A stretch of DNA of 64,000 nucleotides from Drechmeria coniospora (taxonomy: Eukaryota > Ascomycota > Sordariomycetes > Hypocreales > Ophiocordycipitaceae), in contig NC_054389.1 of the NCBI RefSeq assembly GCF_001625195.1, forward strand, positions 2,512,147-2,576,146, written 5' to 3'. This document shows positions 5,427 through 45,463 of the stretch, piece by piece; the stretch's first letter is position 1, and each line of letters begins with the position of its first letter. The notes below the pieces were generated by a model. That model worked only from the letters and a program-made list of their open reading frames with translations. It searched no databases and had not been told where the DNA came from. Made by a program: the position numbers and the translations under genes.

Positions 5427-6361
5427 TGTTAAAATTACTGGTATTTATACTAGTAAGACTACCCAAATAGGATACTATCCTATGTGTTGCCATTTGCAAC
5501 ACCGGGCAGCAGTACTACTGTTTGCCCATATACTACCACTGTACTGCACGTACAGGTAGTATATCGAGTTGACGAATTGCACTTGCTATGCAAATTCTCC
5601 TCGCTCCGACTTAGTACAATTGATGGCAGTACTACTGCCCAGCCAATTTACTACTGTCGCACGTCACGTGCAAAGTGGTACTTGGTCAACCAAGCAAGAT
5701 CATTGATCGGGCCGTCAATTGACGCGCTCCCAACTACTACTAGTAGTTGCCCGCCAACAGTACTACTGTTGCGCGGAAGGACCCACCCAACTGCAACTAG
5801 CAGTTGCTTGCCAGCAGTACTACTACTGGCCCACTCGACTACTGCAGCACTGCTGCTGTACTGTCGCGACCGAACCCTAATACTGATCAACCCTGCTAGT
5901 TGCAACCAACTTGCAGTATGACTCAACCAGAGTATTTGGAGCTGCATTGAATGCAAGCAGATTGTTCGGAGATGCATTGTATGGAATCAGACAGAATTCC
6001 AACACGTGCACATTGCACTGATTGAGGTACTACCTCTCAGGTATAAAATGGTCCTCCCTTTCCTACACTCTTAGATAGTTAGGTACAACACACACACAAG
6101 ACGTACGCTGAACACACGCACGCGCGCAAGCAAGCACAAGAAACACAACAGTCTTTCTTTTCTGAATTGTCCCTTGGCACTACTATTTGACTTATTCAAA
6201 TCTGTATTCCCTGCCCAGTTACTAACTGGTGCACTTCCTGCTGTTACTAACAGCATCGATTGATATCCATTTTGGATAGTCCGTGCAACTGAACTTCCAC
6301 TGCGCACCCTTCCTATTTTACCCCTTTATTCCAAGAGGTATTTCCCCTTTTCATTTTAAGA
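5427..6361 (+). repeat. LTR-A, 3' LTR of Copia-1
   Basis: The 935-bp LTR starts TGTTAAAATT and ends CATTTTAAGA. Both ends were fixed by comparison with three solo copies that have 5-bp target duplications. A likely TATA box (TATAAAA) lies at 6042-6048. The 3' part has CCAGTTACTAACTGG (6215-6229) and GCTGTTACTAACAGC (6240-6254), shared with LTR-B and LTR-C. The upstream part is dense with hairpin-forming palindromes. Confidence 0.93.
5467..6254 (+). other. Palindrome array in LTR-A
   Basis: Perfect or near-perfect inverted repeats include: 5467-5483 (ATAGGATA-C-TATCCTAT), 5529-5563 (14-bp stem with a 2-nt bulge), 5625-5639 (GGCAGTA-C-TACTGCC), 5659-5671, 5681-5694, 5698-5708, 5714-5723, 5731-5749 (CAACTACTA-C-TAGTAGTTG), 5755-5771 (CAACAGTA-C-TACTGTTG), 5788-5806, 5810-5830 (one mismatch; perfect in the copy at 41168), 6024-6036 (GAGGTA-C-TACCTC), 6215-6229 and 6240-6254. 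Many have different stems around the same GTA-C-TAC or GTTA-C-TAAC core. Function unknown. Confidence 0.85.
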
Positions 6362-6759
6362 CCAGTAATACTAACGGTCGCTTTATTTTCGTCCCGCAAG
6401 AGTAACCCTATTGTTAACAATAGGTTTATATATTTCCTTACGTCCTAATTTCCTTTTCCCTTTATCTCGTTATCTTTGTTTTTGACTTAGTATAGATAGT
6501 AATGGCTTTAGGTTTATAGGTAGTCTAGGGGTTCTTGTTAGTATGTCTTTCCCTTCTTTTGCCCTAATGCTCTTTTTATCCTTAAACCGTCCTATAGTTT
6601 TCCTGCTCCCCCTTTGTGTAAGTAGCAACTTGTTGCTAGGTTAATTAATTCGGTTAGGAATTGGTGTGGAATCGGTAGGTTATCGGCGGGGTAACTATAT
6701 CTATACCCTATGTTTATTGCTGTACCCTTTTGTTTAGTCTTTTGTATAATCCCTTCCCT

Positions 6760-12794: not shown

Positions 12795-13019
12795 AAGAGT
12801 GCACAATTAGTAGTACCGAATTATACAAACGAATGCGATTATATTTCAAAAGAGAAACTATTCTAAGGGAATGGCTACTGCCTTATATAGGTGTAGAAAT
12901 ATAGTAAAGACTGTTCCAGCTTATTCCATAAGGTTCCAGCTTATTCCATAAGTAGGGTAAGCAACATTCCGACTTATTCCAAGGAGTTCCAGTACATTCC
13001 ATAAGTAGGGTAAGCAATA

Positions 13020-13618
13020 TGTAACACATATGGGGAGGTGTGCCCATATGGACAATAGACCAGTTAACCGTTCGACCAAATGGCCAAACTGTCAAAAGAT
13101 CCGCCAGTATCCGCACTTAGTGCGGGTACTGTACCTCACATTCGCTTATAAGGCCTATACGCCTATAGCGCGCCTTACAACTATCCCTTCTCCTAAACAA
13201 TGCGGTCCCTCGCATTGCTAGGTACCTCAGTTGGCTGAGGTTATGGGTCTAACGAATGCGAACCCCCAGGTTCTCAGGCAAATAGGCCGCGGCCCGGCCA
13301 GCGCGCCTATACCTTCCTTGTTCCTGTAAGCCTAACGTAGAGCCCGTCGCTGCAGTATTCTCTTTTTTTTTGGTATTGTAGCAGCGCTCTGGCTCGAACC
13401 TACAACCCTCGCTTGTACGCGCACGTGACCCAGAAGACCTACTAAGTGCGGATACAATTGTAACACATATGGGGAGGTGTGCCCATATGGACAATAGACC
13501 AGTTAACCGTTCGACCAAATGGCCAAACTGTCAAAAGATCCGCCAGTATCCGTACTTAGTGCGGGTACTGCACCTTACATTCGCTTATAAGGCCTATACG
13601 CCTATAGCGCGCCTTACA
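13020..13618 (-). mobile_element. TRIM-like miniature LTR retroelement
   Basis: Two 160-bp direct repeats (13020-13179 and 13459-13618), nearly identical, flank a 279-bp non-coding interior. On the minus strand the LTRs start TGTAAGGCGCGC and end GTGTTACA. A purine-rich tract (aggagaagggatag) precedes the left copy on that strand, which supports minus orientation. The LTR start TGTAAGGC is shared with the Gypsy-1 family, a possible mobilising partner (inference). No coding capacity for gag or pol. Confidence 0.8.
13372..13450 (-). other. tRNA-like pol III promoter inside the TRIM (tentative)
   Basis: On the minus strand GGTTCGAGCC fits the box B consensus GWTCRANNC, with a weaker box A-like segment (TAGGTCTTCTGGG) about 45 bp upstream and an A9 run shortly downstream, as in tRNA-derived SINEs. 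The T-stem does not pair well, so this is not a functional tRNA. A second tRNA-like D-arm (acctcagttggctgaggt) lies on the plus strand near 13225-13242. Confidence 0.35.
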
Positions 13619-13924
13619 TAACATTCCGACTTATTCCAAGGAGTTCCAGTACATTCTATAAGTGGGGTATGGAATATTCTAGAATATTCTAGAATGTTCT
13701 AGAGCATTCTGTACTATACCTAATTAGGCAAGTATCTTTAACAATAGTTTAGAGAAATAGTATGTTATATACTATTAGTCAGCTCTGTATACTTACTTAT
13801 ACTCTCAGTATAGTATAGTATATCTGCCAGCAGTAGTACTTCTGACAGTTGCTACTAGTAGTAGCAATAATAGGATAGTATCCTATTTGGGTAGTCTTAC
13901 TAGTATAAATCCTAGTATTTTAAC

Positions 13925-16900
13925 AGTTCGGTGTCCTATAGTTCCGTTCTGTATCCGAGAATTTCCTTAACTAAAATACTACTAGGTACTAACGCCCTTA
14001 GTCGTTTGGTTGGGATAGGATGCCTACTATTATAAAACTTAATATATCTATCTCGATTCTAATAGGTCTTATTAGGTTAAAATAGCGTAATAGCGGAGCC
14101 TTTCTAAATGCATCCTTTAGCTCTTAGAAGGCTACTAGTTCCTTTTTATCTAAGCAGACTTTTCCTAGCTTTTTCCTATTCTTACTTCCTTTAAGGAGTA
14201 TATATAGGGGTACTATAATTCCTAAATAGTTCTTAATAAATCTTCTATAAAAGTTATAGAACCCAAGAAATACTTAGATATTATAGAACGAGGTAGGCTC
14301 TTCCTATTGGGTTATAGCCTATACCCTAGTTAGGTCTATTGCTATTCTATTTTTAGATAGGATAAATTCTAGGAACTTAACCGATTCTTAGTAGAATCTA
14401 TACTTATCCAGATTAATATATAACTTAGCTAACCGTAACTGCCCTAGGATCTCCTTAAGATATTTAGTATATTCCTAGCGGTTTTTTAAGAAGATTAGGA
14501 TATTATCTAGGTATATAATATAGATTATATCTATATACCCTTAGAGTACTTAGTGGATATAGTATTAGAAGGTAGCCGGTACATTAGTTAGCCCGAACGG
14601 TATTACTAAGTATTTAAAATACCTATAGCGTATTCTAAATACTATCTTCTATTTATTGCCCTTCTTAATCCGGATTTAATAGTAAGCGTCCTTAACGTTA
14701 ATCTTAAAGAATACTATAGCTCCTTAGTATTAGTTTATAATCTTGGATATTAGTAGGAGGGCGTATCGATTCTTTACTAAGACCTTATTAAGTCCCCGGT
14801 AATCTATATATAATTAGAGCATACTGTCCTTTTCTAGTATAAATAGAATAGGCAATCCTATAGGTAACTTTAAAGGGCGGATCCTATTAGCTTATAGGTT
14901 CTTATCTAGGTATTCTCTAAGCTCCTTTAGCTCTATTTAAGAGAGTAGGTAAATTAGTCCGTATAGTAGTAATGTATTTAGTTAGAGGTTAATTATATAA
15001 TCCGTCTATTTATATATTAGTAGGATCTTTGCGCTATTTATATTTAGGATATCCTTAAACTCTTTTAGTTCCTGCAGGATCCCTTAGGGCTATTCCCAAT
15101 AACTCCCTAGTAGCTTAATAGGACTGCCTTTTGTTCCTATTACTATAAAGATCTTTACCTTATTCCTATATTTAACTTAAAACTTCTTAGGTACTAGTAG
15201 CTATACCTTTAACTAGCCCTACTAAAACTACTAACGCGCTCCTATAGGGTCTAGGTGGATCCTTAGGTCGGTTAATACTAGTATCCCTAGTATAACCCGT
15301 ATCCAGTCTGGAGTTGGTCCTATATTAACTCCAATATAGTAGCGGGTAAACTCCCTCTCTCCCCCTCTACTATCTATTATACATATAGGTACTTCCTATA
15401 TCCCGTAACTAGTAACTTAAAGACCCCCTATAGCCTGGAGGCTGCTTCCGTTTGTTAAGACTTAGTAAAGTCCGTACTGCCTTACTGTTTGTATATTAAT
15501 AAGGTCTATACTAGTATAGCTATTTAGTTCTACCTTAACCTTTTGGGTAGTTTATTCTAGAATTGTTATATTAGCTATAAACTAAGGTTACGCCCTGTAT
15601 TCCGCGTTACCGACTAAGGTAAGGGTAGCTACCTTAGTTATTAGAAGTTTCCCTATTTTTAGGGTTTTGGGCATTCTCTTGCTTAGTAGCCTTCTTTTTA
15701 GCAGTTAAAATAGCAGTTATTCCTACTCTACCTTAGTAACGGTAGGCCTTTGCTACTATAGGCCCTTTCCGAGCCTAGGGTTATAGATTTTTAGGAGGAT
15801 TCCCTACTATTATACTAGGGTCGGTATGCTCTTATTTCCCTAGCGACTTTCCTTTAATAATTTAGGTTCTCCCCTTCTCTTATATTAGTTCTCCTTTTTA
15901 GTTAGTTTTCGGTAGAGTCCTAAAGTCGTTAGGCTAATTGGACTATCTCTTCCCGTATACGCCCTTCGATATTCTTATATAGATTAATTTAGCTCTATAA
16001 CTCCGGTAGTAACTTACTAAAGTAGTTTTCGATTAAGTCTAGGTAGATACTAAACTCTATTAGGGATTGGCCTTCTTATTGTATTACTTTTTGTCGTTAT
16101 ACTACTAAGTAGGCTTAATAGTTAATTAAGTCTCTTAGTAGGGTAAGCGTTTATTCTTAGAAATAATCCTAATCGTTTTCGGCTATAGTTCGTTAGTCTT
16201 TCGGCAGTTCGTCTAGGTACCTTTCCTAGCGTACCCGGCCCTAGGCCTATATATAGTTAAGGGCCAGTAGGATTTTCCGGTAGTCCTTCTTAAACTTCCG
16301 CCTTACTCTATTAAAGGCGCGGTTTAGGTTATAAAGCTACTCTTGCTTTTTTTACAGAGTTATAGGTTGCCTAAATTCCGGTATATTTTTTACCTTAACT
16401 TCCTGGCCGCTCTCTAAGGAGGTATCCGACTCTCTTTAGGCCCGTTTCTCTACCTTCTTTAGTTAATAGCTAGTACCTATCCCTAGGCGGGTGTAAATCT
16501 CTTTTTCCTTTTCCTTTAGCCTCTCTAACTCTTATAGCTAAGCTAGCCGTTCTTATACTACGGCTAGTATTTCTGGAATAAAGGATTCCCTTTGGGTACT
16601 CCTTAGTATTATTTTAAGGGAACTTAGCGTACTTAGTACGGGGGATACTTTTGGTATTATATTTATTTTGCCCCCTAGTAGGAGGTATAGTATCTCTCTT
16701 ATACTATATATAGTAGGTGCTATCTTACTTAGGTAACTATAATAGAAGCTTTAGAATTATAATGCGCGGATCGGTTAACGATAGTTAGGTAAGTAAGTAA
16801 GCCTTCTTTTAGAAATCGAGTAGTATTTAAGACTAAAGCTTGGCCCTTCTTAAGTTTTCGGGCTTACGTTCCTTTTGTAGCCGGGGCGTACCCTAGGCTG

Positions 16901-18950: not shown

Positions 18951-21478
18951 TATTTTTGCTTATAGTCTACTAGTACTTTAGTCTCCTATAGATTTTCCAG
19001 TAGTTCCTATATAGGTTAGTTATATCCGGCCTATTTAACTAGGATATTGTAGCGCTTACCTTACCCTCTTGCGTTCTTTGCAGCTAAGATTTCCTTTACA
19101 ATATACTCTTCCTATAGTATACCGTCCTTATCCTTTACTAAGAGCGGCCCTAGCTCTATATTTATTAAGGCTTAACTAGGTAGCGGATCTATTGCGGCCC
19201 GCTCTACTAGGTCTATATAAAAGGTAGGGTATATACTTTAGGGGATATCTAGTATAATAGTTAGGGGGGTCGGTACGGCTATAACTATATACTTAGCTAT
19301 TACCTAGTCTAGCTTCTTGGATAGGCATAGAGACTTTATATAGCGTAGACTTAGCTATACCTTATCCCCTACCTAGAAACGCTCCGCTAAGCGCCGGTAG
19401 GAGTTTAATTCTTCCTTTAAGCGTTGCTATATAAATGCAATTGCCGCTTGGGCTAGCTCGGTACCTTTGCGTAGGCGCTATGCAAATGCTACTACTTACC
19501 CTTTACCTGTAGTTACGCTTAGGGTAGGAGCTTTTTGTTAAAATACTGGTATTTATACTAGTAAGACTACCTAAATAGGATACTACCCTATTAGTATTAG
19601 TACTAGTACTACTAGTACGGATGCTATACTATACTGCGAGTATTAGTAAGCATATTGAGTTGACTAATAGTATACAACATACTACTTCTCCGAACCATGA
19701 CTCGGAGCGACGCACGGCAGTACTACTACCGACCAACTCACTACTGCAATGTGACCTACACATGTGGTAGCCAGTCGACCACTGGAGCCAATTGATCGGA
19801 ACGACAATTGCTGCTCTCCCAATCGCTACTAGCGCTTGCCAGCCCACAATACTAACTTGGGCCGGACCACCCATCCATTATGTGATGGAATCAGCCAAGC
19901 TAATGACTGAAACAATCCATCCAACCTTATGACGGAAGCAGTCAACTAACGAGTAACTGAAACAGTTATCCAACTGTATAATGGTTTCAGCCATTTAAGC
20001 CATAGTACGATGGCGCCTTTGATCCACGATGGAATCTCCGATAAAGCCGTTATTGGGGATTGTTCTGTAGATATAAATAGCCGCTCTTTTCCTGTACTGT
20101 AGCTAGAAGAAATAATCGCATTCGTTTGTATAATTTGGTACTACCAATTGTGCACTCTTGCCCAGTTACTAACTGGCACTTCCCTTATTGCTGTTACTAA
20201 CAGTATAATTGATTTACTAGTCCGTGCGATATACTTCCACTATCCCCTCCTCTTGCGCATCAATTGCAAGACTTTTACCCGTTGTACTATATTAACTTTA
20301 TATTCCAATAGGAGACTGTTCGGGCTTATACCGGTAACGGAAGAGTCCCTACCATTTAGCGCTAGCTAGTATACTACTAAATAGTCCGGCTAGTTAAATT
20401 GGTCGAATGCTATAAAGGTATGTAGGATTGCTTGGACTTCTTGGTTCGCTCGTTCCGTACCCCTATCTAACTGTAGGTAATATACTATAGACAGCCGCTA
20501 TTCGATCCCGACAATATGGTATAACGTTGCCTAGAACTGGCCGACCTAGTCTGATCCTCGGTCGGATATAATGTATTCCGGGAACCTACGGAAACGCTAC
20601 TAGTACTCCTTAAACCGTTCGGTATACGTTTCTACCGTTATAGATATTATAGCTTCCAGCTATATATACTTAGATAGTCTATTTGTAAGTACTATTATAT
20701 ACTATAGCGCTTATTCGTCTCGTGCGGGTAGCTCCGTTATAAAGTCTACGGAGATCTATTTCCAATATCTATCCGGCGGCTCTATTTACTACAGTAGGCC
20801 CTAGTAGTGCTACCTACTCTTATAGCTATAGTAGTAGTAGTAGTTCCGTATAAATTGCCCTACTGCTACCGATATATAATCCTAGTAGTAATTCCTCTTT
20901 AGCGCTATAAATATAGTATTACGTCCTAGGTACCCCGAGATAGGGGAGTTATAGACTTAGTGGATAATGCATATAGTTAGCGGTTCCTATAATAGTAGCT
21001 ATAGGCGCCCTTGGAACTATAGCGTACTGTGCGTATTAATAGTACAGTCGGCTACCTATTCCTATATATCTACTTTGTCCGGGAACTTATAGTCTTTGCA
21101 ACGTATAGTATTTAGGCGTACTGTATATATTTGGTCCTTAATAACTACCTAGTCCTATAGCTCCTGTAAGCTAGTATTATAGAATAGCCGTAATCCTAGT
21201 AGTAGGTTGCTAGACGGTTGCTCTACGGGCATACTGTAAGTGCTTAGCGAACTTCCGAAACTACTAATTAATATAGGTTGTAATACTTATATAGTTCGGG
21301 GTTAGTACTTTACGTCCTACTGCCTGTATAATAGTATATTTAGCCGTTGCGCTTAAGATCCGGGCCTATACTATAAATAAAAGTTAAACTGTAAGAGCTT
21401 TTTAGCCTACCGTACCTAGCGCTCCGAGATTTCCTGCGGTCGGGTAAAGTATTTTAGGTTCTTATAGTCGGTTAGAAC
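18951..21478 (-). pseudogene. Gypsy-3 RNase H, integrase and chromodomain, decayed
   Basis: The minus-strand conceptual translation shows RNase H (LTDYKNLKYFTR near 21470-21430, ending in a YRPG motif), an integrase core with TERANQEVQAIL (about 20470-20420) and an integrase C-terminal GDKV motif (about 19370). A chromodomain has EEYIVKEILAAKNARG (about 19110-19060) followed by GKRYNILVK. Stops replace Trp and Gln throughout. The solo LTR-C at 19536-20271 interrupts it. RT is absent because Copia-2's LTR begins at 21479. Confidence 0.82.
19536..20271 (+). repeat. Solo LTR-C inside Gypsy-3
   Basis: This 736-bp LTR starts TGTTAAAATACTGG and ends CAATTGCAAGA, flanked by a perfect ctttt duplication (19531-19535 and 20272-20276). 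It shares the first about 60 bp and the last about 200 bp with LTR-B but has a different U3. TATAAATAG near 20076 is a likely TATA box. No heat-shock-type GAA array is present. Confidence 0.93.
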
Positions 21479-21693
21479 TGTTAAAATACTAGGATTTATA
21501 CTAGTAAGACTACCCAAATAGGATACTATCCTATTATTGCTACTACCAGTAGCAACTGTCAGAAGTACTACTGCTGGCAGATATACTATACTATACTGAG
21601 AGTATAAGTAAGTATACAGAGCTGACTAATAGTATACAACATACTATTTCTCTAAACTATTGTTAAAGATACTTGCCTAATTAGGTATAGTAC

Positions 21694-21834
21694 AGAATGC
21701 TCTAGAACATTCTAGAATATTCTAGAATATTCCATACCCCACTTATGGAATGTACTGGAACTCCTTGGAATAAGTCGGAATGTTGCTTACCCTACTTATG
21801 GAATGTACTGGAAATCCTTGGAATAAGCTGGAAC
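21694..21834 (+). promoter_or_regulatory. Heat-shock-element array in LTR-B U3
   Basis: At 21704-21733 six contiguous pentamers alternate perfectly: aGAAc aTTCt aGAAt, then aTTCt aGAAt aTTCc. One more aGAAt unit lies in register at 21694-21698. Two further arrays have nGAAn every 10 bp: starts 21747, 21757, 21767, 21777, and 21800, 21810, 21820, 21830. These match the perfect and step-type sites bound by heat shock factor Hsf1 in fungi. Binding itself is inference. The core is also in other LTR-B copies (28347-28376, 34684-34713, 36556-36585, minus strand 13671-13711; one unit altered near 29151-29180). Confidence 0.85.
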
Positions 21835-21857
21835 AGTCTTTACTATATTCCTACACC

Positions 21858-21866
21858 TATATAAGG
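21858..21866 (+). promoter_or_regulatory. TATA box of LTR-B
   Basis: TATATAAGG lies about 24 bp after the last GAA unit and is conserved in the LTR-B copies that reach this part. It probably positions transcription start a few tens of bases downstream. Confidence 0.7.
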
Positions 21867-22062
21867 CAGTAGCCATTCCCTTAGAATAGTTTCTCTTTTG
21901 AAATAAAATCGCATTCGTTTGTATAATTTGGTACTACCAATTGTGCACTCTTGCCTAGTTACTAACTGGCACCCCTTATGCTGTTACTAACAGCTTGATT
22001 GATTCCCTGGTCCGTGCGATATACTTCCACTACCCCTCCTCTTGCGCACCCAAATTGCAAGA

Positions 22063-22074
22063 GGTTATGAGCCC
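22063..22074 (+). other. Primer-binding site of Copia-2 (half-tRNA type)
   Basis: GGTTATGAGCCC directly follows the LTR. It is complementary to GGGCTCATAACC in the anticodon arm of eukaryotic initiator tRNA-Met, not to a tRNA 3' end. That is the half-tRNA priming known from Drosophila copia and yeast Ty5. The mutated counterpart in Copia-5 is at 43789-43799 on the minus strand. Confidence 0.8.
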
Positions 22075-22691
22075 GGAAGGACTACAATCAATCCTCCGGA
22101 ATTGATCTGTGCAACTTACTAAGTCGCCTACCAGTACTACTGGTAAATCGTCCGGATCGATCTCTGTAACTTACTAAGTTACCTACCAGTACTACTGGTA
22201 AAGATTGATCGAATCCTGTAACTTACTAAGTTACCTACCAGTACTACTGGTAACGATTGATCGAATCCTGTGACTTACTAAGTCACCTACCAGTACGACT
22301 GGTAACTCTTGGTCGAATCTGTGACTTACTAAGTCACCTACCAGTACTACTGGTAACTCTTGGTCACCAAACGGCTCCCCCAACTACTAGTACTACTAGT
22401 ACGTTATCTACCAGTACTACTGGTAATCCCTGGTCGCCAAACGGCTCCCCCAACTACTAGTACTACTAGTACGTTATCTACCAGTACTACTGGTAATCCC
22501 TGGTCACCAAACGGCTCCCCTAACTACTAGTACTACTATACTACTAGTACGTTGCTTACTAGTACTACTGGTAACTGTTGGTCATCTAACTACAGCTTTA
22601 ACTCCTACTAGTACTACTAGTAGAAGACCTATTGCTAGTACTACTAGCTAGGTAGGTAAGGCAAAATCGGAATCTAGTTACTAACTAGAAA
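22075..22691 (+). repeat. Copia-2 leader: array of palindromic repeats
   Basis: The non-coding leader has about eight imperfect tandem units, each combining ACTTACTAAGT-like and TACCAGTA-C-TACTGGTA palindromes, separated by short spacers (gattgatcgaatcctg, ctcttggtc). Longer units near 22370-22560 add CTACTAGTACTACTAGTA. The same array, mutated, is present in Copia-5 (about 43430-43790, minus). A related leader starts the window. Confidence 0.85.
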
Positions 22692-24256
22692 ATGGATCCC
22701 ACCAATTAAGGTCAGGGAACTAACCTGTCGGAAATCGAAAAACGTCTACTGGTACAGCAAACGCAAATCGATGAACTTTTACAACAACATACTCAATCTA
22801 TGCAACAACTCAATACTGTTGTTCCACAGATACAAGATCGACTAAATACAATCGAGTTAACTCTTAGCAATCTCAGTAATAGTACTACTATTACAAAGAC
22901 AGAGGATTCTAACTCCAGCTACGAGTTAAACAAAAAAGTCTACCAATTCCCGGAATACGCAAAACTCAAAGGCACCGAGAATTACGAGCTATGGGAGCAA
23001 TCCCTATCAATTCAACTTCAAGCCCTGGACCTAGAAAGTTTTCTGGATAAACCTTCAATTGCATCTAACTTCTCAAGCAGAAATCAGGCCCGTTTACTTA
23101 TGCTATTACGGGATAGCTGTACGGAAGAAACCTTAGCATCTATTGCATGGATTAAAAACCTAACTGAGGTTTTCCTGTTATTGAAAAAACAATACTCCGA
23201 AGGCCACGAAGCCAAACGCTCTAACCTATACGACGCTTACTACACCCTTACATTTAAGGGGTACCAAGGAACACTCGAGGCATTTAATACTGAATTTAAC
23301 AGTCGACTTACTAGGCTACAACTAGCCGGAGTAACAATTGATCCACTGGATTAAGCCAACCGATACCTTGCAACAGTTAAGCCTGTTTTTCCACAATGGG
23401 TTGCTATGCAACGCAATACTATTCAGTCTTCCCGAGCCTTAGGACTTGAAACAGATACCCTAGGTCTACAATACCTTATGGTTAACCTTCTGGAAGAAAA
23501 TCGAAACTCCAGTACTACTGGATCGAATACATTCAGCCACAAGGTATCCCAAGTACCTAAGAAAAAGAAGAAAGGGAAATTCAATAAAAAGAAATCTGAC
23601 CAGTCGAGCCAAACTGATAAAAAGAACCAATCGACCAACCAACCAAAGGATACTACTAGTTTCCTAGTTGGTAACTACAGTCTAGCCGCTGGCTGTATGG
23701 ATTCATCTTATTCCTACCAGGAATCAGATACCGATTCTAACTGTACAGAAGAATTGGAAATATTACCTAACTTAGGTAATATTGGTACACTATACAACGT
23801 TACTAACGCTGATATATACCACATGGGCCTACTCTACGATACTGGCTCAACCTGCCATTTGGTAAATAATCGGTCTAAGTTTACAACCTTCCGACCAATT
23901 ACAAAATCCCAGGCACAACCAATTACAACTGGAGGTGGTCTAATCTACCCTAGTGGAATTGGAAATGCAGAATTTACGGTATTAATTAATACCGATCCAC
24001 CAACCTATAGTACTCTTGTACTACAAGATGCACTATATATTCCGAAAATGGAAGTCAATATTATCAGTGGAATCCGCCACTACGGATCAGGGGGAACTCT
24101 TATTAAGGAATCCCTATACAACTCGAACCGACAAGTATGTGGTCTACTCGACTTCCAGAGGCACGGCTTCTTCTTACAACAAGAAGGCCAAGATACGCCC
24201 TATCTGAGCAAATCAGACTCAGCCCACTTTAGCTATTACAGTAGCTACGGAATAAC

Positions 24257-24428
24257 TGTTATGGTATCGGGCTTAGCCCGATATAGGAGAACGAAGGGAA
24301 CCAAGGGACCCACTAGGAGGAACGCACACAACTAGAAGCCCTAGTTGCCAAGTAGTTTTCCTAGCCTTCAAGTCTTTTAATAAACATCATTGAGAGTCCT
24401 AGAGCAGTCGCCTAGCGACTCCGTAACA
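24257..24428 (+). repeat. Solo LTR-E in Copia-2
   Basis: It is a 172-bp sequence, TGTTATGGTATCGGG to GACTCCGTAACA, flanked by perfect ataac duplications (24252-24256 and 24429-24433). Removing it and one duplication restores the protein frame seen in Copia-1. The same LTR is at 40879-41048 next to Gypsy-5 gag, which identifies the family as Gypsy. Confidence 0.92.
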
Positions 24429-24486
24429 ATAACAGTGGAAATTCCTTCGCAACTACCTCCCTGGGCTAACGAGGCAGAAGACTGGA

Positions 24487-24620
24487 CGGCACCTAGATCG
24501 GTGCCTAGTCCGGCACCTAGATCGGTGCCTAGTCCGGCACCTAGATCGGTACCTAGTCCGGCACCTAGATCGGTGCCTAGTCCGGTGCCTAGATCTACAC
24601 CTAGGTCGGTACCTAGTCAA
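24487..24620 (+). repeat. 24-bp coding tandem repeat in Copia-2 linker
   Basis: Four to five units encode RSVPSPAP-like repeats, the counterpart of 1923-2062 in Copia-1 but with a different consensus. Confidence 0.8.
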
Positions 24621-25142
24621 GTACCTATACCAGGACTAGATCCTAGCCCAACTACTAGTTCGGCTGGATTAAGGGACCTTACTAAGGCTACCCTATACAA
24701 AGACCCTATAGAGGACCCAATCCCTATAGAGGCAACAGACCTACTGGCAGTCCCTACTGTTAGTACCGAGGAACAGGCTATTCCGACTACTAGTTCGGAA
24801 TCCAGCAACCAGTCTTACCAAGGACTATTGCAACAAGCAGGCATCTGGCACATCCGATTAGGACACATCAGTCTGCCACTTTTGAAAAAGACTAGTAAAA
24901 TTACTAGCGGGCTGCCTGACTTCTCGTCTATTAAGGCTACTGATTTTCAATGCATTACTTGCATACGGGCAAAATCTACCAGACGACAGTCAAAAGATCC
25001 AATCGAGGATCCAGACTGTGTACTTGATTCTATCGAAGGGGATACATTTGGGATTAAACCTATATCCTACGACCGAAAATCCATTGGACTAATACTTATC
25101 GATCGAAAATCCCGATTCCGTTGGGTATATATCTTACCTAAT

Positions 25143-25333
25143 TGTCACGATGCTGACTAGCAGGAAGGCAGTATGTGCAAAGACTATAGAATTTTCGAAC
25201 TAAGGAAGAAGAAAAGAGAAGGAAAACAGTGAGTGCGGGAAGGAAGGGGCCATATACATAGGTGGTCCGCGCATCACGTGATGAAGAGTGTAGGGTAGGC
25301 CAGAAGAAGAGTACGATATACGATATCGTCACA
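25143..25333 (+). repeat. Solo LTR-D in Copia-2 integrase
   Basis: It is a 191-bp sequence from TGTCACGATGC to ATATCGTCACA with perfect ctaat duplications (25138-25142 and 25334-25338). It contains the palindrome CATCACGTGATG. A second copy is at 45509-45701. The parent element is not in this window. Confidence 0.92.
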
Positions 25334-26059
25334 CTAATAAGGAAGGACCAACAGTTCTCCAGGCTATAAAGAACTTCTTCCAAAGCCTAAAAACACACTA
25401 TAACCGTTACCCAAAAAGGTTATTTTATGATGGAGGACCTGAAATCAACATATTGCTTTAGGACTGGTTGGGTACCAAAGGAATACTATTCGATACGTCT
25501 TGCCCGTACACCCCCGAACAAAACGGACTTGCCGAACGGTCTATACGAGTTATTCTGGACCGACTACGCGCAACAATAATCTGGGCCGGCCTCCCACTTT
25601 TCCTCTGGTCTGCTATACTTCCTGCTATAGTCAACCTAGTTAACTATACTGCAATTACCAATAGGGATTTAAGCCCCTACCAATTGCTTAAGCAGGAATT
25701 ACAAGGGCTAAAAACACCACCAAACCTTACAGCCTATAAGGCTATTGGTGCCCACTGCGAAGTCCTGATCCCACACCAGAAACGGATTCAAAGTGCTAAA
25801 TTAGCACAACGCACAGAACCAGCAAGGCTACTAGCAACGCTAGGTTCAAAAACATACCTTGTGTATATACCTTCTAGGAGGGCAGTTACAAAAACCACTT
25901 TCCTGAAAATCCTAGAAGGTATAGGCCCTATCTCCCAAGGACTTCAACGACTACCAAGTCCTAGTCTCCAAGAACTAAAGTCAGAGGGGGAAATTAAGAT
26001 AGAAGACTATATCTTGCAAAACACCTCTAGTCCTCTAACACCTAGGGAGACAGAGGGGG

Positions 26060-26310
26060 CCAACGGACCTACTAGTCCTACTAGGACTAGTAGACCTTCT
26101 AGTCCTACTAGGACCAGTAGGTTGCAAGGAACCAACGGACCTACTAGCCCTACTAGGGCTAGTAGACCTACTAGTCCTACTAGGACCAGTAGGTTGCAAG
26201 GAGCCAACGGACCTACTAGTCCTACTAGGACTAGTAGACCTACTAGTCCTACTAGGACCAGTAGGTTGCAAGGAGCCAACGGACCAACTAGTCCTACTAG
26301 GACTAGCACA
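26060..26310 (+). repeat. Coding tandem repeat in Copia-2 integrase-RT linker
   Basis: Units encode SPTRTSRP and SPTRTSRLQGANGPT motifs in alternation (72-bp composite period). The homologous array in Copia-1 has 45-bp units. Confidence 0.82.
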
Positions 26311-28121
26311 ACAGAGGGGGTCCTGGCCCAGCCAATAGAGGATCTACCAGATACCTCTCTTCCAGATGCACCAGAACCAGAAGACAACCCTAACCCAATG
26401 GATCTTAATCTAGCGTATTGGATCCAGGACCTATGCTACCAAGCTAAGGCCAAGCAACTACCAAATAGTAGCGAGCCTACTAGCTGGAAACAGGTACTTA
26501 AGTCAGACAACAAAGACCAGTGGATAAGTGCTATATTCTTGGAATTCCAGCAGCTTATCCAGGCAGGGGTATTTTATCTTATCCCCCTTCAAGAAATACC
26601 AACTGGCAGACGACTTCTGAAAAGCCGACTTGTACTACGAGTCAAAAAGGACCAGCAGAACAACCCCATCAAATTCAAGGCACGACTAGTAGCTAAGGGA
26701 TTTATGCAAATTGAAGGCCTCGATTACCTAGAGACTTTTGCAACTACTAGTATTCCACCTACCTGGAGGATACTACTAGCCCTAGCTGCCCAGAACAACT
26801 GGTACGTCGAACAGATTGACTTTATTGGTGCTTTCCTAAATAGTGAGCTACCTGAAGTCAATTATCTTGAAATCCCTGAGGGACTGGAAGCATTTATTAG
26901 TCTTAATAAGACTAATAATTTAGCTAAGCTACTAGCTAAGCTAGGCTACAATCCGGCAGTCAAATAAGGCATCCTTTTGAAAAAGGCACTCTACGGCCTA
27001 AAACAAGGACCTAGAGAATGGCAGGAGGCACTTGCCAAACTGCTACAACAATACGGATACAGCCCCCTTGTATCTGATCCGGCTATCTACTATAATAGTA
27101 CTACTAGTACTTACATAGTTAGCCATGTCGACGACTGCCTACTTATTGGACCAAACCTTACATACATTAACAAGTTAAAGCAACAACTACATAAGGTTTA
27201 CCCAATCGAAGACCGCGGACAGGCCGCCTTCTTCCTAGGCGTACAAATTAGTCGAACAACTAAGGGTATTACCCTTAGCCAAAAAGGGTATATTGAGGAA
27301 GCCCTATCCCGATTTGGGTTAAAGGAGGCCAAGGCAGTAGCAATACCGCTACAGCCAGGAGTACTTAAGCAGGCTACTACAACGCCTCTTACTCCCTTGT
27401 CCGCAACCGACCAACTGGTATACCAACAGATAGTAGGGACTCTAATGTACCTTATGCTACTGACCCGACCAGATATAGCCTTTGCAATCCAATGGCTATC
27501 TCGGTATATGCATCAGGCTACTAGTCTGCAGCTATCAGCCGGCAAGAACCTTCTTCGATATCTAAAAGGAACTACAGACCTAGCTATATGCTATTGGTCT
27601 AAGTCAACAACACCCAATCTATCAGGATATTCCGACAGCGACTTTGCAGGTGACTTAGATTTCTCTAAGTCTACCTATGGGTACCTCTTTACCCTAGCAG
27701 GCGGACCAATCTGCTGGAAATCAAAAAGGGCTAGTACTATTGCTCTTTCTACTGTAGAGGCAGAATCGGATGCCCTACTGGAAGCAATTCGGGAACTTAA
27801 ATGGCTAGACGGTCTATTTACAGAAATCGACAAAGGCCTTAAAAAACCTATACCACTTCTGTGCGATAACAACGGATCTATCTCTAACGCCAACAATCCC
27901 AATTAGCATAACCGAACAAAGCATACACTGCTAAAGTTCCGGTATATTCGGCAAGAAGCAACCAATGGGCTAGCCAAAATCAGTTACCTGAACACTAAGT
28001 CTATGCCTGCCGATGGTCTTACTAAGGCCCTTACCGCTGATCTCTTCCAACGCTACCTTAGCCTACTAGGTCTCCAAGGGATCCCTATTTAGCAGTAGTC
28101 ATACTAGCTAAATAGAGGGGG

Positions 28122-28705
28122 TATTAAAATACTAGGATTTATACTAGTAAGACTACCCAAATAGGATACTATCCTATTATTGCTACTACTAGTAGCAACT
28201 GTCAGAAGTACTACTGCTGGCAGATATACTATACTATACTGAGAGTATAAGTAAGTATACAGAGCTGACTAATAGTATACAACATACTATTTCTCTAAAC
28301 TATTGTCAAAGATACTTACCTAATTAGGTATAGTACAGAATGCTCTAGAACATTCTAGAATATTCTAGAATATTCCATACCCTACTTATGGAATGTACTG
28401 GAACTCCTTAGAATAAGTCGGAATGTTACTTACCCTACTTATGGAATGTACTGGAAATCCTTGGAATAAGCTGGAACAGTCTTTACTATATTCCTACACC
28501 TATATAAGGCAGTAGCCATTCCCTTAGAATAGTTTCTCTTTTGAAATAAAATCGCATTCGTTTGTATAATTTGGTACTACCAATTGTGCACTCTTGCCTA
28601 GTTACTAAATGGCACCCCTTATGCTATTACTAACAGCTTGATTGATTCCCTGGTCCGTGCGATATACTTCCACTACCCCTCCTCTTGCGCACCCAAATTG
28701 CAAGA
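28122..28705 (+). repeat. LTR-B, 3' LTR of Copia-2
   Basis: At 584 bp it is the same length as the 5' LTR. It starts TATTAAAAT (TG changed to TA) and ends TTGCAAGA. It keeps the heat-shock-element core at 28347-28376. Confidence 0.95.
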
Positions 28706-28924: not shown

Positions 28925-29544
28925 TGTTAAAATACTAGGATTTATACTAGTAAGACTACCCAAATAGGATACTATCCTATTATTGCTACTACCAGTAGCA
29001 ACTGTCAGAAGTACTACTGCTGGCAGATATACTATACTATACTGAGAGTATAAGTAAGTATACAGAGCTGACTAATAGTATACAACATACTATTTCTCTA
29101 AACTATTTGTCAGAGATACTTGCCTAATTAGGTATAGTACAGAATGCTCTAGAACATTTTAGAATATTCTAGAATATTCCATACCCTACTTATGGAATGT
29201 ACTGGAACCTCTGGGAATAAGCCGGAATGTTGCTTACCCTACTTATGGAATAAGCTGGAACCTCTTGGAATAAGCCGGAATGTTGCTTACCCTACTTATA
29301 GAATAAGCTGGAACAGTCCTTACTGCACTTCTACACCTATATAAGGCAGTAGCCATTCCCTTAGAATAGTTTCTCCTTTTTGAAATATAATCGCATTCGT
29401 TTGTATAATTTGGTACTACCAAGTTTGCACTCTTATCCAGTTACTAACTGGTTCCCTTTATGCTGTTACTAACAGCTTGATTGATTCCCTGGTCCGTGCG
29501 ATATACTTCCACTACCCCTCCTCTTGCGCACCCAAATTGCAAGA
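28925..29544 (+). repeat. Solo LTR-B in Gypsy-4 protease
   Basis: At 620 bp it is longer than the Copia-2 LTRs because it has an extra GAA-rich segment. It has perfect tatac duplications (28920-28924 and 29545-29549). The uninterrupted target is visible in Gypsy-1 near 11300-11330. One pentamer of the heat-shock core is changed. Confidence 0.95.
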
Positions 29545-33597: not shown

Positions 33598-35340
33598 TAA
33601 GGGTATTACCCTTAGCCAAAAAGGGTATATTAAGTAAGCCCTATCCCGATTTGGGTTAAAGGAGTCCAAGGCAGTAGCAATACTGCTACAGCCAGGAGTA
33701 CTTAAGCAGGCTACTGCAACGCCTCTTACTCCCTTATCCGCAACCGACCAACTAGTATACCAACAGATAGTAGGGACTCTAATGTACCTTATGCTACTGA
33801 CCCGACCAGATATAGCCTTTGCAATCCAATGGCTATCTCGGTATATGTATTAGGCTACTAGTCTGCAGCTATCAGCCGGTAAGAACCTCCTTCGATATCT
33901 AAAAGGAACTACAGACCTAGCTATATACTATTGGTCTAAGTCAACAATACCCAATCTATCAGGATATTCCGACAGCAACTTTACAGGTAACTTGGATTCT
34001 TTTAAGTCTACCTATAGGTACCTCTTTACCCTAGCAGGCGGACCAATCTGCTGGAAATCAAAAAGGGCTAGTACTATTGCTCTTTCTACTATAGAGGCAG
34101 AATCGGATGCCCTACTAGAAGCGATTCGGGAACTTAAATAGCTAGACGGTCTATTTACAGAAATCGACAAAGGCCTTAAAAAACCCATCCCACTTTTGTA
34201 CGATAACAACGGATCTATCTCTAACGCCAACAACCCCAATTAGCATAACCGAACAAAGCATATACTGCTAAAGTTCCGGTATATTCGGCAAGAAGCAACC
34301 AATAGGCTAGCCAAAATCAATTACCTAAACACTAAGTCTATGCCTGCCGATAGTCTTACTAAGGCCCTTACCGCTAATCTCTTCCAATGCTACCTTGGCC
34401 TACTAGGTCTCTAAGGGATCCCTATTTAGCAGTAGTTATACTAGCTAAATAGAGGGGGGATTAAAATACTAGGATTTATACTAGTAAGACTACCTAAATA
34501 GGATACTATCCTATTATTGCTACTACTAGTAGCAACTGTCAGAAGTACTACTGCTGGCAGATATACTATACTATACTAAGAGTATAAGTAAGTATACAGA
34601 GCTAACTAATAGTATACAACATACTATTTCTCTAAACTATTGTTAAAGATACTTACCTAATTAGGTATAGTACAGAATGCTCTAGAACATTCTAGAATAT
34701 TCTAGAATATTCCATACCCTACTTATAGAATGTACTGGAACTCCTTGGAATAAGCCGGAATGTTGCTTACCCTACTTATGGAATAAGCTAGAACCTTATG
34801 GAATAAGCTGGAACAGTCTTTACTATACTTCTACACCTATATAAGGCAGTAGCTATTCCCTTAGAATAGTTTCTCTCTTTTTGAATATAATCGCATTCGT
34901 TTGTATAATTTGGTACTACTAAGTTTGCACTCTTACCCAGTTACTAACTGGTTCCCCTTATACTGTTACTAACAGCTTGATTGATTCCCTGGTCCGTGCG
35001 ATATACTTCCACTACCCCTCCTCTTGCGCACCCAAATTGCAAGACTAATCCCTTACCAGAAACGGATCCAAAGTGCCAAATTGGTACAACGCATAGAACC
35101 AGCAAGGCTACTAGTAACGCTAGGTTCAAAAACATACCTTGTATATATACCTTCCAGAAGGGCAGTTACAAAAACTACCTTCCTAAAAGTCCTAGAAGGT
35201 ATCGGCCCTATCTCCCAAGGACTTCAACGACTACCAAGTCCTAGTCTCCAAGGACTAGAGTCAGAGGGGGAAATTGAGATAGAAGACTATATCTCGCAAA
35301 ATACCTCTAGTCCCCTAACACCTAGGGAGACAGAGGGGGC

Positions 35341-36330: not shown

Positions 36331-36896
36331 TGTTAAAATACTAGGATTTATACTAGTAAGACTACCCAAATAGGATACTATCCTATTATTGCTACTACCA
36401 GTAGCAACTGTCAGAAGTACTACTGCTGGCAGATATACTATACTATACTGAGAGTATAAGTAAGTATACAGAGCTGACTAATAGTATACAACATACTATT
36501 TCTCTAAACTATTGTCAGAGATACTTGCCTAATTAGGTATAGTACAGAATGCTCTAGAACATTCTAGAATATTCTAGAATATTCCATACCCTACTTATGG
36601 AATAAGCTGGAACCTCTTGGAATAAGCCGGAATGTTGCTTACCCTACTTATGGAATAAGCTGGAACAGTCCTTACTGCACTTCTACACCTATATAAGGCA
36701 GTAGCCATTCCCTTAGAATAGTTTCTCCTTTTTGAAATATAATCGCATTCGTTTGTATAATTTGGTACTACCAAGTTTGCACTTTTATTCAGTTACTAAC
36801 TGGTTCCCCTTATGCTGTTACTAACAGCTTGATTGATTCCCTGGTCCGTGCGATATACTTCCACTACCCCTCCTCTTGCGCACCTAAATTGCAAGA
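36331..36896 (+). repeat. Solo LTR-B in Copia-4 RT
   Basis: 566 bp with perfect gttag duplications (36326-36330 and 36897-36901). The heat-shock core is intact at 36556-36585, with fewer step-type units than in Copia-2. Confidence 0.95.
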
Positions 36897-37900: not shown

Positions 37901-38695
37901 TGTTAAAAATACTAGTATTTATACTAGTAAGACTACCTAAATAGGATACTATCCTATTGCTACTACTACCAGTAGTAACTGCTAGGAGTACTACTACTAG
38001 CAAATATGCTATACTATACTGCAAGTATTAGTATGCATATAGAGTTAACTAATAGTAAACAACATACTACTTCTCCGAACTACGACTCGGAGCGACTGCC
38101 GGCAGTACTACTGCCAGCCAACCCACTACTACAACCTGACCCACATATGTAGTAGTCAGTCGACTACTGGAGTTAATTGATCGGAACACCAATTGACATT
38201 CTCCCAACGGCTACCAGCCGTTGCTAGCCAAGAGTACTACTCTTGGCAATTTGAACTATAGTACAGGGATAACCAAGCCGGTGACTTACCGTATGAATAC
38301 GACCAAGCAGGTAACCTACTGCGCGGTATAATGGACTGGCTACCTAACTTAACAGGCTTGTATATGCGCACATTAGTATAGCAGTTATGGTCTCGACTTA
38401 GGTACACTAAGTTATCGCAGATCGTATATGCGCACATTAGTATGGCAGTCATGGTCTCGACCCAGGAACCTAAGGTTGTCGAGGTACTACCTCCAAGACA
38501 TAAATAGTCCTATTTCTCCTGTACTATACTTGATAGAATAATTGCATTCGTTTGTATAATTTGGTACTACCAAGTTTGCACTCTTACCCAGTTACTAACT
38601 GGCACCCATTTTGCTGTTACCAATAGCGTGATTGATTCCCTAGTCCGTGCGATATACTTCTACTACCCCTCTTCTTGCGCACCCAAATTGCAAGA
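37901..38695 (+). repeat. LTR-C, 3' LTR of Copia-4
   Basis: The 795-bp LTR runs from TGTTAAAAATACTAG to TTGCAAGA. Its pol is Copia-2-like, but U3 lacks the GAA arrays and resembles the solo LTR at 19536 instead. Confidence 0.88.
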
Positions 38696-41048: not shown

Positions 41049-43390
41049 GTAACGTATCCTACTAATAATATTAACTTCTAGTTTCGGAATATATAGTGCC
41101 TCCTTTAGTACAAGAGTACTATAGGTTGGTGGATTAGTATTAATTAATACTATAAATTCTATATTCCTGTTAAAATTACTGGTATTTATACTAGTAAGAC
41201 TACCCAAATAGGATACTATCCTATGTATTGCTATTTGCAATACCTGGCAGCAGTACTACTGCTTGCCTATATACTACTACTGTACTGCACGTACAGGTAG
41301 TATATCGAGTTAACGAATTGCACTTGCTATGCAAATTCTCCTCGCTCCGACTTGGTACAATTGATGGCAGTACTACTGCCCAGCCAATTTACTACTGTCG
41401 CACGTCAAGTGCAAGTGGTACTTGGTCGACCAAGCAAGATCATTGATCGGGCCGTCAATTGACGCGCTCCCAACTACTACTAATAGTTGCCCGCCAACAG
41501 TACTACTGTTGCGCGGAAGGACCCACCCAACTGCAACTAGCAGTTGCTTGCCAGTAGTACTACTACTGGCCCGCTCGACTACTGCAGTACTGCTGCTGTA
41601 CTGTTGCGACCGAACCCTAATACTGATCAACCCTGCTAGTTGCAACCAACTGGCAGTATGACTCAACCAGAGTATTTGGAGCTGCATTAAATGCAAGCAG
41701 ATTGTTCGGAGATGCATTGTATGGAATCAGACAGAATTCCAACACGTGCACATTGCACTGATTGAGGTACTACCTCTCAGGTATAAAATGGTCCTCCCTT
41801 TCCTACACTCTTAGATAGTTAGGATAGGATAACATACAAGGTGCACACGCTAAAAACACACACGCACGCGCGCAAGCAAAGCACAAGAAACACAACAGTC
41901 CTTCTTTTCTGAATCGTCCCTTGGCACTACTATTTGACTTGTTCAAATCTGTATTTCTTGCCCAGTTACTAACTGGTGCACTTCCTGCTGTTACTAACAG
42001 CCTTGATTGATATCCATTTTGGATAGCCCGTGCAACTGAACTTCCACTGCGTACCCTTCCTATTTTACCCCTTTATTCCAAGAGGTAATTCCCCTTTTAT
42101 TGCAAAAATTCCCAATTCTACTAGGGTAGATAGGACTACCTCCAGTTGTAATTAGTTTTGACTAGGATTTTACAATTGGTTGGAAGTTTAAAAACTTAGA
42201 CCGATTGTTTACTAAATAATAGGTTAAGCCAGTATTGTAGATTAGGCCCTTGTAGTATACATTAGTATTAGTAATACTATATAGTGTACCGATATTATCT
42301 AAGTTAGGTAATATCTCCAATTTTTATGTAGAATCAGTATCTGATTCTTAGTAGGAATTAGGTAAGTCCATACAGCTAACGGTTAGGCTATAATTACCAA
42401 CCAGGAAACTAGTAGTATCCTCCAATTGCTTAGTCGATTGGTTGGATTTATTTAATTTCTTGAATTGGTTCGATTTATTGGATTGGCTTATTTGGTTAGA
42501 TTTATTAGACTTATTTCCTTTCTTCTTTTTCTTGGGTCCTTGGGATATTTGGTAACTAAATATATTCGTTCCAGTAGTACTGGAGTTTTGATTTTCTTTT
42601 AGTAGGTTAGCTATAAGGTATTGTAGGTTAAAGATATCCGATTTAAGTCCTAGGGCTTTAGAAAATATAAGGGTATTTTCCTGAATAGCTGCCCATTGTA
42701 GAAATATAGGTTTAACTAATGCAAGATAATAATTGGTCTGGTCTAATGGATTAATTGTTGCGCCGGCTAGAAGTAGCCTAGTAAGTCGACTATTGAATTC
42801 AGTATTGAATGAATTTAGTGTTCCTTTGTACCCCTTAAATTTAAGATTATAGTAGGCTTTGTATAGGTTGGAACGTTTAGCTTTATAGCCTTTGCAGTAA
42901 TGCTTCTTCAGTAATAGATAAATTTAAGTTGGATTTTTAATATATACAGTTAATGCTGAGATTTCTTTCGAATAACTATCCCGTAGTAGCATAAGTACAT
43001 TGGCCTGATTCCTTTCTGAAAAGCTTAATGCAATTAAGGGCTTATCCAGGAAGCCTTCTAGATCAAGGGCTTAAAGTTGTATTGCTAGAGATTGCTCCTA
43101 TAGCTCGTAGTTCTTAGTACCTTTGAGTTTTGCATATTTAGGGAAGTCAAATGCCTTTTTATTCAACGCATAGTTAGAATAGGAATCCTCTACCCTATTG
43201 ATACTAGTAGTACTAGTACTAAGAGTAGATTCTATTAAATTTAGTTATTCTTGTATCCTTGGGACAATAGTATTGAGTTGCCGTAGCAGTTCGTTGATTT
43301 GCGTTTGTTGTTCCCGAAGATGTTTTTCAATTTCCAACAGGTTGGTATTCTGACCTTGGTTGTTAGGATCTATTTTCTAGTTAGTAACTA
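41049..43390 (-). pseudogene. Copia-5 gag-protease, decayed
   Basis: It is homologous to Copia-2 Gag. The start ATG is now ATA (about 43373), several Gln and Trp codons are stops, and the protease DTGST reads NTGLT, so its catalytic Asp is lost. A Lys/Asn-rich tract near 42430-42530 replaces the Gag zinc knuckle. Near the left end about 165 bp are deleted compared with Copia-2, just before the LTR-E junction. Confidence 0.82.
41168..42107 (+). repeat. Solo LTR-A in Copia-5 protease
   Basis: 940 bp with attcc duplications (41163-41167 and 42108-42112). Its last bases differ from other copies (TTGCAAAA instead of TTTTAAGA). The palindrome at 5810-5830, imperfect in Copia-1's LTR, is perfect here. 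Confidence 0.92.
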
Positions 43391-43799: not shown

Positions 43800-45463
43800 T
43801 CTTTGCAATTAATACGCAAGAGGAGGGGATAGTGGAAGTATATCGCACGGACTAGTGAATTAATTATACTGTTAGTAACAGCAATAAGGGGAGCCAGTTA
43901 GTAACTGGGCAAGAGTGCACAATTGGTAGTACCGAATTATACAAACGAATGCGATTATTTCTTCTAGCTACAGTATAGGAAAAGAGCAGCTATTTATATC
44001 TACAGAACAATCCCCAATAACGGCTTAATCGGAGATTCCATTGTGGATCAAAGGCTCCATCGTACTATGGCTTAATGGCTGAAACCATTATACAGTTGGA
44101 TGGCTGTTTCAGTTACTCGTTAGTTAACTGCTTCCGTTATAAGGTTAGATGGCTCGTTTCAGTAATTAGGTTGGCTGATTCCATTACATAATGATTGGGT
44201 GGTCCGGCCTATAATAGTATTGTGGGCTGGCAAGCGCTAGTAGCAATTAGGAGAGCTGCAATTGTCGTTCCGATCAATTGGCTCTAGTGGTTGACTGGCT
44301 ACTACCTGTGTGGGTCACATTGTAGTAGTGAGTTGGTTGGTAGTGGCACTACCGTATATCGCTCCGAGTTGTAGTTCGGAGAAGTAGTATATTGTATACT
44401 ATTGGTCAACTCAATATGCTTACCAATACTCGCAGTATAGTATAGCATTCGTACTAGTAGTACTAGTACTAATAGGATAGTATCCTATTTAGGTAGTCTT
44501 ACTCTTAAAATGAAAAGGGGAAATACCTCTTGGAATAAAGGGGTAAAATAGGAAGGGTGCGCAGTGGAAGTTCAGTTGCACGGACTATCCAAAATGGATA
44601 TCAATCGATGCCGTTAGTAACAGCAGGAAGTGCACCAGTTAGTAACTGGGCAGGGAATACAGATTTGAACAAGTCAAATAGTAGTGCCAAGGGACAATTC
44701 AGAAAAGAAAGACTGTTGTGTTTCTTGTGCTTGCTTGCGCGCGTACGTGTTTTCAGCGTACGTCTTGTGTGTGTGTACCTAACTATCTAAGAGTGTAGGA
44801 AAGGGAGGACCATTTTATACCTGAGAGGTAGTACCTCAATCAGTGCAATGTGCACGTGTTGGAATTCTGTCTGATTCCATACAATGCATCTCCGAACAAT
44901 CTGCTTGCATTCAATGCAGCTCCAAATACTCTGGTTGAGTCATACTGCCAGTTGGTTGCAACTAGCAGGGTTGATCAGTATTAGGGTTCGGTCGCGACAG
45001 TACAGCAGCAGTACTGCAGTAGTCGAGCGGGCCAGTAGTAGTACTGCTGGCAAGCAACTGCTAGTTGCAGTTGGGTGGGTCCTCCCGCGCAACAGTAGTA
45101 CTGTTGGCGGGCAACTACTAGTAGTAGTTGGGAGCGCGTCAATTGACGGCCCGATTAATGATCTTGCTTGGTCGACCAAGTACCACTTGCACGTAACGTG
45201 CGACAGTAGTAAATTGGCTGGGCAGTAGTACTGCCATCAATTGTACCAAGTCGGAGCGAGGAGAATTTGCATAGCAAGTGCAATTCGTCAACTCGATATA
45301 CTACCTGTACGTGCCGTACAGTGGTAGTATATAGGCAAGCAGTAGTACTGCTGCCCGGTGTTGCAAATGACAACACATAGGATAGTATCCTATTTGGGTA
45401 GTCTTACTAGTATAAATACCAGTAATTTTAACACTTACTAGTATAAATACTAGTATTTTAATA
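43800..45463 (-). repeat. LTR-C of Copia-5, interrupted by solo LTR-A
   Basis: About 725 bp of LTR remain after removing the insert. The minus-strand start is TATTAAAATACTAG at 45463 and the end is GCAAAGA at 43800. TATAAATAG lies near 43990-44000 on the minus strand. It resembles LTR-C at 19536 and 37901. Confidence 0.88.
44503..45433 (-). repeat. Solo LTR-A nested in the Copia-5 LTR
   Basis: 931 bp in minus orientation with perfect cttac duplications (44498-44502 and 45434-45438). Its insertion into an LTR of the same superfamily shows that LTR-A elements were active after Copia-5 arrived. Confidence 0.95.

Follow-up and report, generated by a model that had tools for sequence, protein, structure and literature searches.

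The LTR-B element and its surroundings

The window, by which we mean the whole 64-kb stretch of DNA analyzed (C1:2512147-2576146), belongs to the genome of Drechmeria coniospora (32.8 Mb in 28 contigs). It contains a Copia element bounded by long terminal repeats (LTRs) of a family that we call LTR-B, with the following parts:

21479-22062 (+): 5' LTR of the LTR-B Copia element, 584 bp, TGTTAAAATAC...GCAAGA
21661-21898 (+): U3 segment specific to LTR-B, about 238 bp, missing in the sister families C and D, with both flanks common; borders accurate to a few bases
22063-22076 (+): GGTTATGAGCCCGG directly 3' of the 5' LTR, presumed primer binding site, read from the sequence
22710-27906 (+): gag-pol region with broken frames; Copia domains Pol_BBD, GAG-pre-integrase, SH3 and RVT_2 split over two frames
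28122-28705 (+): 3' LTR, nine differences from the 5' LTR in 584 positions (575/584 agree), arrays retained

The first-pass annotation had taken this repeat for a Copia LTR, an assignment borne out by an RVT_2 domain (split over two frames) between the LTRs of the pair at 21479-28705, by 5-bp target duplications in the LTR-B family, and by the sequence that adjoins the LTR. The latter, GGTTATGAGCCCGG, is complementary to the initiator tRNA, and we presume it to be the primer binding site; aaatagaggggg lies directly 5' of the 3' LTR. GAG-pre-integrase and SH3 matches precede RVT_2 in the element, and no rve match was detected in its broken frames, while a frame of the sister family A holds rve followed by RVT_2. 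Among the listed relatives of this sister-A reverse transcriptase, most come from the fungus Phyllachora maydis. A 5-bp target duplication is present in eight of ten LTR pairs, paired by position and orientation, as well as in several solo copies. Comparison by eye of the outer flanks of the pair at 21479-28705 revealed no target duplication, and this element may therefore be a recombinant.

At 22113-22622 and 26059-26306, the element contains tandem repeats (52, 70, and 72 bp) with many CTACTAGTAC-type words. Next to the transposon cluster, a 4067-aa open frame at 48781-60984 (-) encodes a giant adhesin-like protein; the frame includes tandem repeats of 114/117 bp and, toward its far end, a GLEYA/PA14 domain. 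The host is a nematode-killing fungus, and its spores stick to nematodes.

Heat shock element units upstream of a presumed TATA box

The U3 of the 5' LTR carries the following elements:

21694-21698 (+): lone nGAAn unit that keeps the 5-bp register of the perfect array (script scoring)
21704-21733 (+): perfect heat shock element of six alternating nGAAn/nTTCn units, putative Hsf1 target (script scoring, pattern match)
21747-21781 (+): first step-type array, four nGAAn units at 10-bp steps (script scoring, pattern match)
21800-21834 (+): second step-type array, four nGAAn units at 10-bp steps, 53 bp downstream of the first (script scoring, pattern match)
21858-21864 (+): TATATAA, presumed TATA box (read from the sequence, putative function)

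The nGAAn units start at 21694, 21704, 21714, 21724, 21747, 21757, 21767, 21777, 21800, 21810, 21820, and 21830, and the nTTCn units at 21709, 21719, and 21729, such that all arrays lie within 164 bp upstream of TATATAA. Direct reading and script scoring agree with the first-pass annotation in every coordinate it had given for the six-unit run, the single unit, both step arrays, and the TATA box. As it had proposed, the geometry of the arrays is that of the perfect and step types known for fungal Hsf1. By geometry, LTR-B falls among Hsf1-type heat shock elements, with at least three nGAAn units inverted or in 10-bp-step register. As in heat-responsive Copia elements, these HSF-type sites are located in the LTR ahead of the putative start site.

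The first-pass annotation had suggested a comparison with dinucleotide-shuffled LTRs, and the arrays lie far beyond what 2000 shuffles of the 584-bp LTR, scored by script, produced. The longest perfect run among them was three units, reached in 3/2000 shuffles, against six observed, and the longest run at 10-bp steps was two, against four observed. A run of four at 10-bp steps, of which the LTR has three (one formed by the GAA units of the perfect block), occurred in 0/2000. Over the 64-kb window, there are five matches to the six-unit pattern and 18 to the four-step pattern, where 100 shuffles gave none, and by their coordinates all 23 matches fall in LTR-B copies. These shuffle statistics overstate the surprise, because the array units depend on one another. 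The perfect block consists of a 10-bp tandem repeat, and the first step block has a 90% duplicate 53 bp downstream, which forms the second.

In view of this repetition within the blocks, we gave more weight to the comparison between blocks than to the shuffles. Across the 12 decamers of the three blocks, positions 2-4 read GAA in 12/12 and position 1 is always a purine; the rest vary, leaving GAA as the only invariant. Of the 64 triplets, GAA and the overlapping GGA and TGG are the only ones to recur at least three times at 10-bp steps within 21734-21840.

The arrays sit in a family-specific U3 cassette

Sister LTRs of families A, C, and D are present in the window at 5427-6366, 19536-20271, 37901-38695, and 41167-42108; they have common ends and different U3 middles. 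Two of them served as controls:

19536-20271 (+): sister LTR of family C, same ends, other U3 middle, no array
37901-38695 (+): sister LTR of family D, same ends, other U3 middle, no array

Families C and D match LTR-B only at about LTR positions 1-182 and from about 420 to the end, with 90% identity there, and align to each other over their full length at 70%. What family A has in common with LTR-B is its first 152 bp and a portion of the 3' end. In the four sister LTRs that were scored (two A, one C, one D), the perfect run never exceeds one unit and the 10-bp run never exceeds two. The LTR-B segment of about 238 bp, which holds the arrays and the TATA box, occupies the place of a longer U3 middle in its relatives and ends about where R should begin; the predicted start site lies near this border, at about 21899. 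The arrays are missing from sister LTRs whose ends match those of LTR-B, and the heat shock elements therefore belong to a family-specific U3 cassette, which we infer was gained in the LTR-B lineage. Family C carries spaced GAAAC/GGAAG words of its own, and other U3 cassettes may carry the sites of other factors. At 43800-45462 (-), an A-type LTR is apparently nested in a C-type LTR, with GTAAG on both sides (by eye).

LTR-B copies in the window and in the genome

Further LTR-B copies are found in the window:

12795-13929 (-): split LTR-B copy, interrupted by about 600 bp of inserted sequence (similarity; six-unit pattern match)
28925-29544 (+): LTR-B copy with an extra 53-bp unit; perfect run of four rather than six, step arrays retained
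34459-35044 (+): LTR-B copy with all arrays (similarity, script scoring)
36331-36896 (+): solo LTR-B flanked on each side by GTTAG, its target duplication; 20 bp fewer in one step array

The core thus recurs in the other copies of the window, as the first-pass annotation had noted, with the qualification that in the copy at 28925 the perfect run is limited to four units. The insert of the split copy (13021-13619) contains a GGTTCGAGCC word and a run of A; this word resembles a tRNA B box, and the insert may be a SINE. An Rfam search of the split copy returned a single match, far below its gathering score, and a tRNA scan of the window with the bacterial code returned none.

A genome search with the LTR gave at least 41 full or nearly full matches, and 40 of 457 candidates were scored; 40 LTR-B loci were retrieved, 39 of which were aligned. 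The six-unit run is kept in 30 of these 39 copies, with five units in one, four in seven, and two in one. If the GAA units of the perfect block are counted, none of the 39 lacks a run of four GAA at 10-bp steps. Five LTR-B copies vary by 20 bp in array length without any break in the 10-bp register, and the third block occurs in forms that differ outside the core and keep their four GAA.

The six-unit pattern reads the same on both strands; it has 52 matches in the genome and none in a read-backwards control. Among the 50 matches listed of these 52, all lie in LTR-B copies: 30 in LTRs of the genome search, 19 in 18 further loci where BLAST covers the site, and one in the split copy. Two of the 50 overlap one another, in an LTR-B copy (L059, 574-611) where they make up eight contiguous units, so that the perfect block also varies in length. 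A host, non-LTR copy of the long array was sought and none was found among the 50 matches listed of 52. The six-unit array has no match in viral contigs. Four-unit sites with other linkers occur in the genome at 2 and 5 places, fewer than in the read-backwards control (14-15 and 18); TA-linked arrays are invisible to both of these patterns, and shorter TA-linked host arrays would therefore be missed. The four-step pattern gives 133 and 153 matches on the two strands, against 99 and 63 in the read-backwards control, a weaker kind of evidence because simple repeats match it too. A chance origin of the arrays is ruled out by the shuffles and the genome counts.

RIP, conservation, and recent activity

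The two genome papers of D. coniospora describe active RIP, count 193 TY1_Copia elements, and report that retrotransposons are enriched at centromeres and at the ends of chromosomes; a term search of their available text found no passage on heat-driven elements (PMC4792172, PMC4859500). In our ten LTR pairs, 194/202 differences are transitions, and in the aligned LTR-B copies, sites in RIP context (CpA/TpG) differ in 34-39% of cells. Outside this context, the A/T columns of the GAA/TTC core changed in 2/1002 cells, against 201/1905 for the other array columns (p=0.007 by columns), and the comparison with all non-core columns gives p=0.073. For the C/G core columns of these aligned copies, conservation does not exceed that of other columns (p=0.29 and 0.32). 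Column conservation gives moderate, not decisive, support to selection on the GAA/TTC core.

In the pair at C1:959627-966419, the two LTRs agree at all 584 positions, the AGATA duplication matches, and an open frame of 1482 aa with the joint best RVT_2 match of the genome lies between the LTRs, which together indicate that LTR-B was active recently; this identical and most recent pair carries the arrays. Most RVT_2 matches listed in the genome are interrupted by stops. The window also has an open sister-A frame of 1581 aa, from a family that lacks the arrays, and arrays are thus not a condition of activity.

Hsf1 and chaperone promoters of the host

The genome has three HSF-domain loci, one corresponding to Hsf1 and two further ones. 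The Hsf1 frame is 100% identical to Drechmeria coniospora Hsf1 and canonical, and the solved structures to which its domain aligns carry the names heat shock factor protein 1, 2, and 4.

As a yardstick, we used 31.5 kb upstream of 13 chaperone loci, partly coding, and defined a cluster as three in-phase units within 25 bp. Six such clusters are present in five of the 13 regions, one of them step-type and located 240 bp upstream of an SSA-like HSP70. By their motifs, locus L090 reads as a mitochondrial HSP70 and L091 as a cytosolic SSA. The other eight regions, including those of HSP90, Hsp104, and Hsp78, have no in-phase cluster, and neither do six other loci (41.3 kb) once the site by which each had been selected is removed. 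As most chaperone regions are devoid of clusters, the LTR-B layout is not the norm of the host. The host may use both geometries, and nothing examined there approaches LTR-B.

A candidate stress-inducible promoter and its alternatives

We consider it most probable that LTR-B is an Hsf1-driven, stress-inducible promoter LTR that works like the plant ONSEN. In this mechanism, trimers of the host Hsf1 would bind cooperatively to the heat shock element cassette that this Ty1/Copia family of D. coniospora carries in its U3, ahead of the TATA box. Activation of Hsf1 by heat or other protein-damaging stress would then raise transcription of the intact LTR-B copies, and amplification of the family would thereby be tied to host stress, as it is for ONSEN in Arabidopsis. 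Recognition of the arrays by Hsf1 is the very likely part; a clear heat induction of at least some LTR-B copies is a reasonable expectation, held with somewhat less assurance than the overall reading. In Brassicaceae COPIA elements, transcripts accumulated up to thousand-fold where four-unit arrays were present; gap and step types are described as mostly insufficient (PMC5059998). From these plant data, the perfect block should be the main driver of LTR-B. The step blocks may play an auxiliary part or may suit the Hsf1 of fungi. Step-type elements are known from S. cerevisiae, and Hsf1 peaks in C. albicans yielded a shorter form (PMC4894976).

The same sites might instead make a strong constitutive promoter, with Hsf1 bound in the absence of heat, expression in ordinary growth, and little added by heat. 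Fungal Hsf1 is reported to bind some promoters with and without heat shock (PMC4894976), and the LTR-B array is far denser than those at host chaperone genes. The counter-evidence is indirect, namely the strong heat induction that accompanied four-unit arrays in plant COPIA (PMC5059998), and on balance we regard this possibility as unlikely. We find it highly improbable that the sites are read by another factor, either a TEA-domain protein of the AbaA/Tec1 type (CATTCY) or a second HSF-type protein such as Skn7, which would place the element under developmental or oxidative control. Ty1 is a precedent for control by a TEA-domain factor, the genome has one TEA locus besides the two further HSF-domain loci, and the 824-bp sequence L014 contains six CATTCY sites, a number reached in 0/200 shuffles (mean 0.51). 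However, the count of CATTCY varies in the five copies checked (6, 4, 4, 4, and 1), and a TEA factor leaves the 5-bp/10-bp grid unexplained, GAATG being present in 4/12 decamers against 12/12 for GAA.

Lastly, tandem duplication in an AT-rich LTR could have produced the arrays as a side effect, without any function in regulation. The repeat structure of the blocks, the heavy RIP-type change of the copies, and the stops that interrupt most of the reverse-transcriptase matches listed in the genome all fit such an origin. It does not sit well with structurally different blocks that have only GAA and its spacing in common, with the placement of the arrays directly upstream of the TATA box, with a third block whose variant forms differ outside the core and keep four GAA, or with the presence of the arrays in the identical, most recent pair, and we consider it the least probable of these readings. 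Returning to the Hsf1-driven promoter, a more ambitious version can be offered only tentatively: the lineage would have swapped the middle of its U3 for a ready-made cassette at the U3/R border, bearing the longest perfect elements found in the host genome; LTR-B would be the first fungal transposon activated directly via the host Hsf1; and its solo LTRs could scatter heat-inducible promoters across the genome.

Relation to known systems and significance

The rice blast element MAGGY of Pyricularia (Magnaporthe), a Gypsy element, is said in the title of a 2001 article to be activated by heat shock, copper, and oxidative stress, which qualifies the suggestion of the first-pass annotation that the LTR-B layout may be undescribed. 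A further qualification comes from TCN12 and TCN3 of Cryptococcus, fungal LTR retrotransposons mobilized at 37 C with putative heat shock elements in their LTRs (PMC12810828). These differ from LTR-B in having one and two putative elements and basidiomycete hosts, and it is temperature-linked movement that is shown for them, not Hsf1 binding. Searches of open-licence PMC papers gave no report of the stacked layout itself, and no ascomycete LTR carrying such arrays among the papers listed. In the main text of a 2014 paper on heat and MAGGY-type elements, a term search returned neither heat shock element nor HSE (PMC3978060). According to a January 2026 paper, transposon activation by heat shock through host machinery is shown in plants and animals and undescribed in fungi (PMC12810828).

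ONSEN (COPIA78) of Arabidopsis and other heat-responsive Brassicaceae COPIA elements have nGAAn arrays in a Copia LTR, like LTR-B, and HSF binding and heat induction have been demonstrated for ONSEN (PMC3907296, PMC5059998). Their hosts are plants with many HSFs, and we make no claim that LTR-B descends from ONSEN. The strongest type described for Brassicaceae is 4P (at least four adjacent units), and a six-nGAAn cluster is mentioned for TERESTRA of A. lyrata; LTR-B in comparison combines a six-unit perfect run with one more unit and two step arrays. In Caenorhabditis, heat shock elements of Helitrons are often clustered and bound by HSF-1 on heat shock (PMC6927752); these are animal DNA transposons, and binding is shown there. 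Closer to LTR-B in its pattern of variation is crapaud, from the Podospora anserina complex: its subfamilies vary chiefly in the U3 ahead of the TATA box, and template-switch recombination is discussed for it (PMC10787394). That paper gives the promoter binding sites as unknown (PMC10787394), and LTR-B offers a candidate factor.

One genome holds a family with dense arrays together with sisters that have the same ends and no arrays, so that their response to heat can be compared within a single strain. For crapaud and other fungal LTR families in which the U3 varies, LTR-B also offers a way to read that variation in concrete regulatory terms. Heat mobilizes fungal transposons, and LTR-B makes the route through host machinery directly testable.
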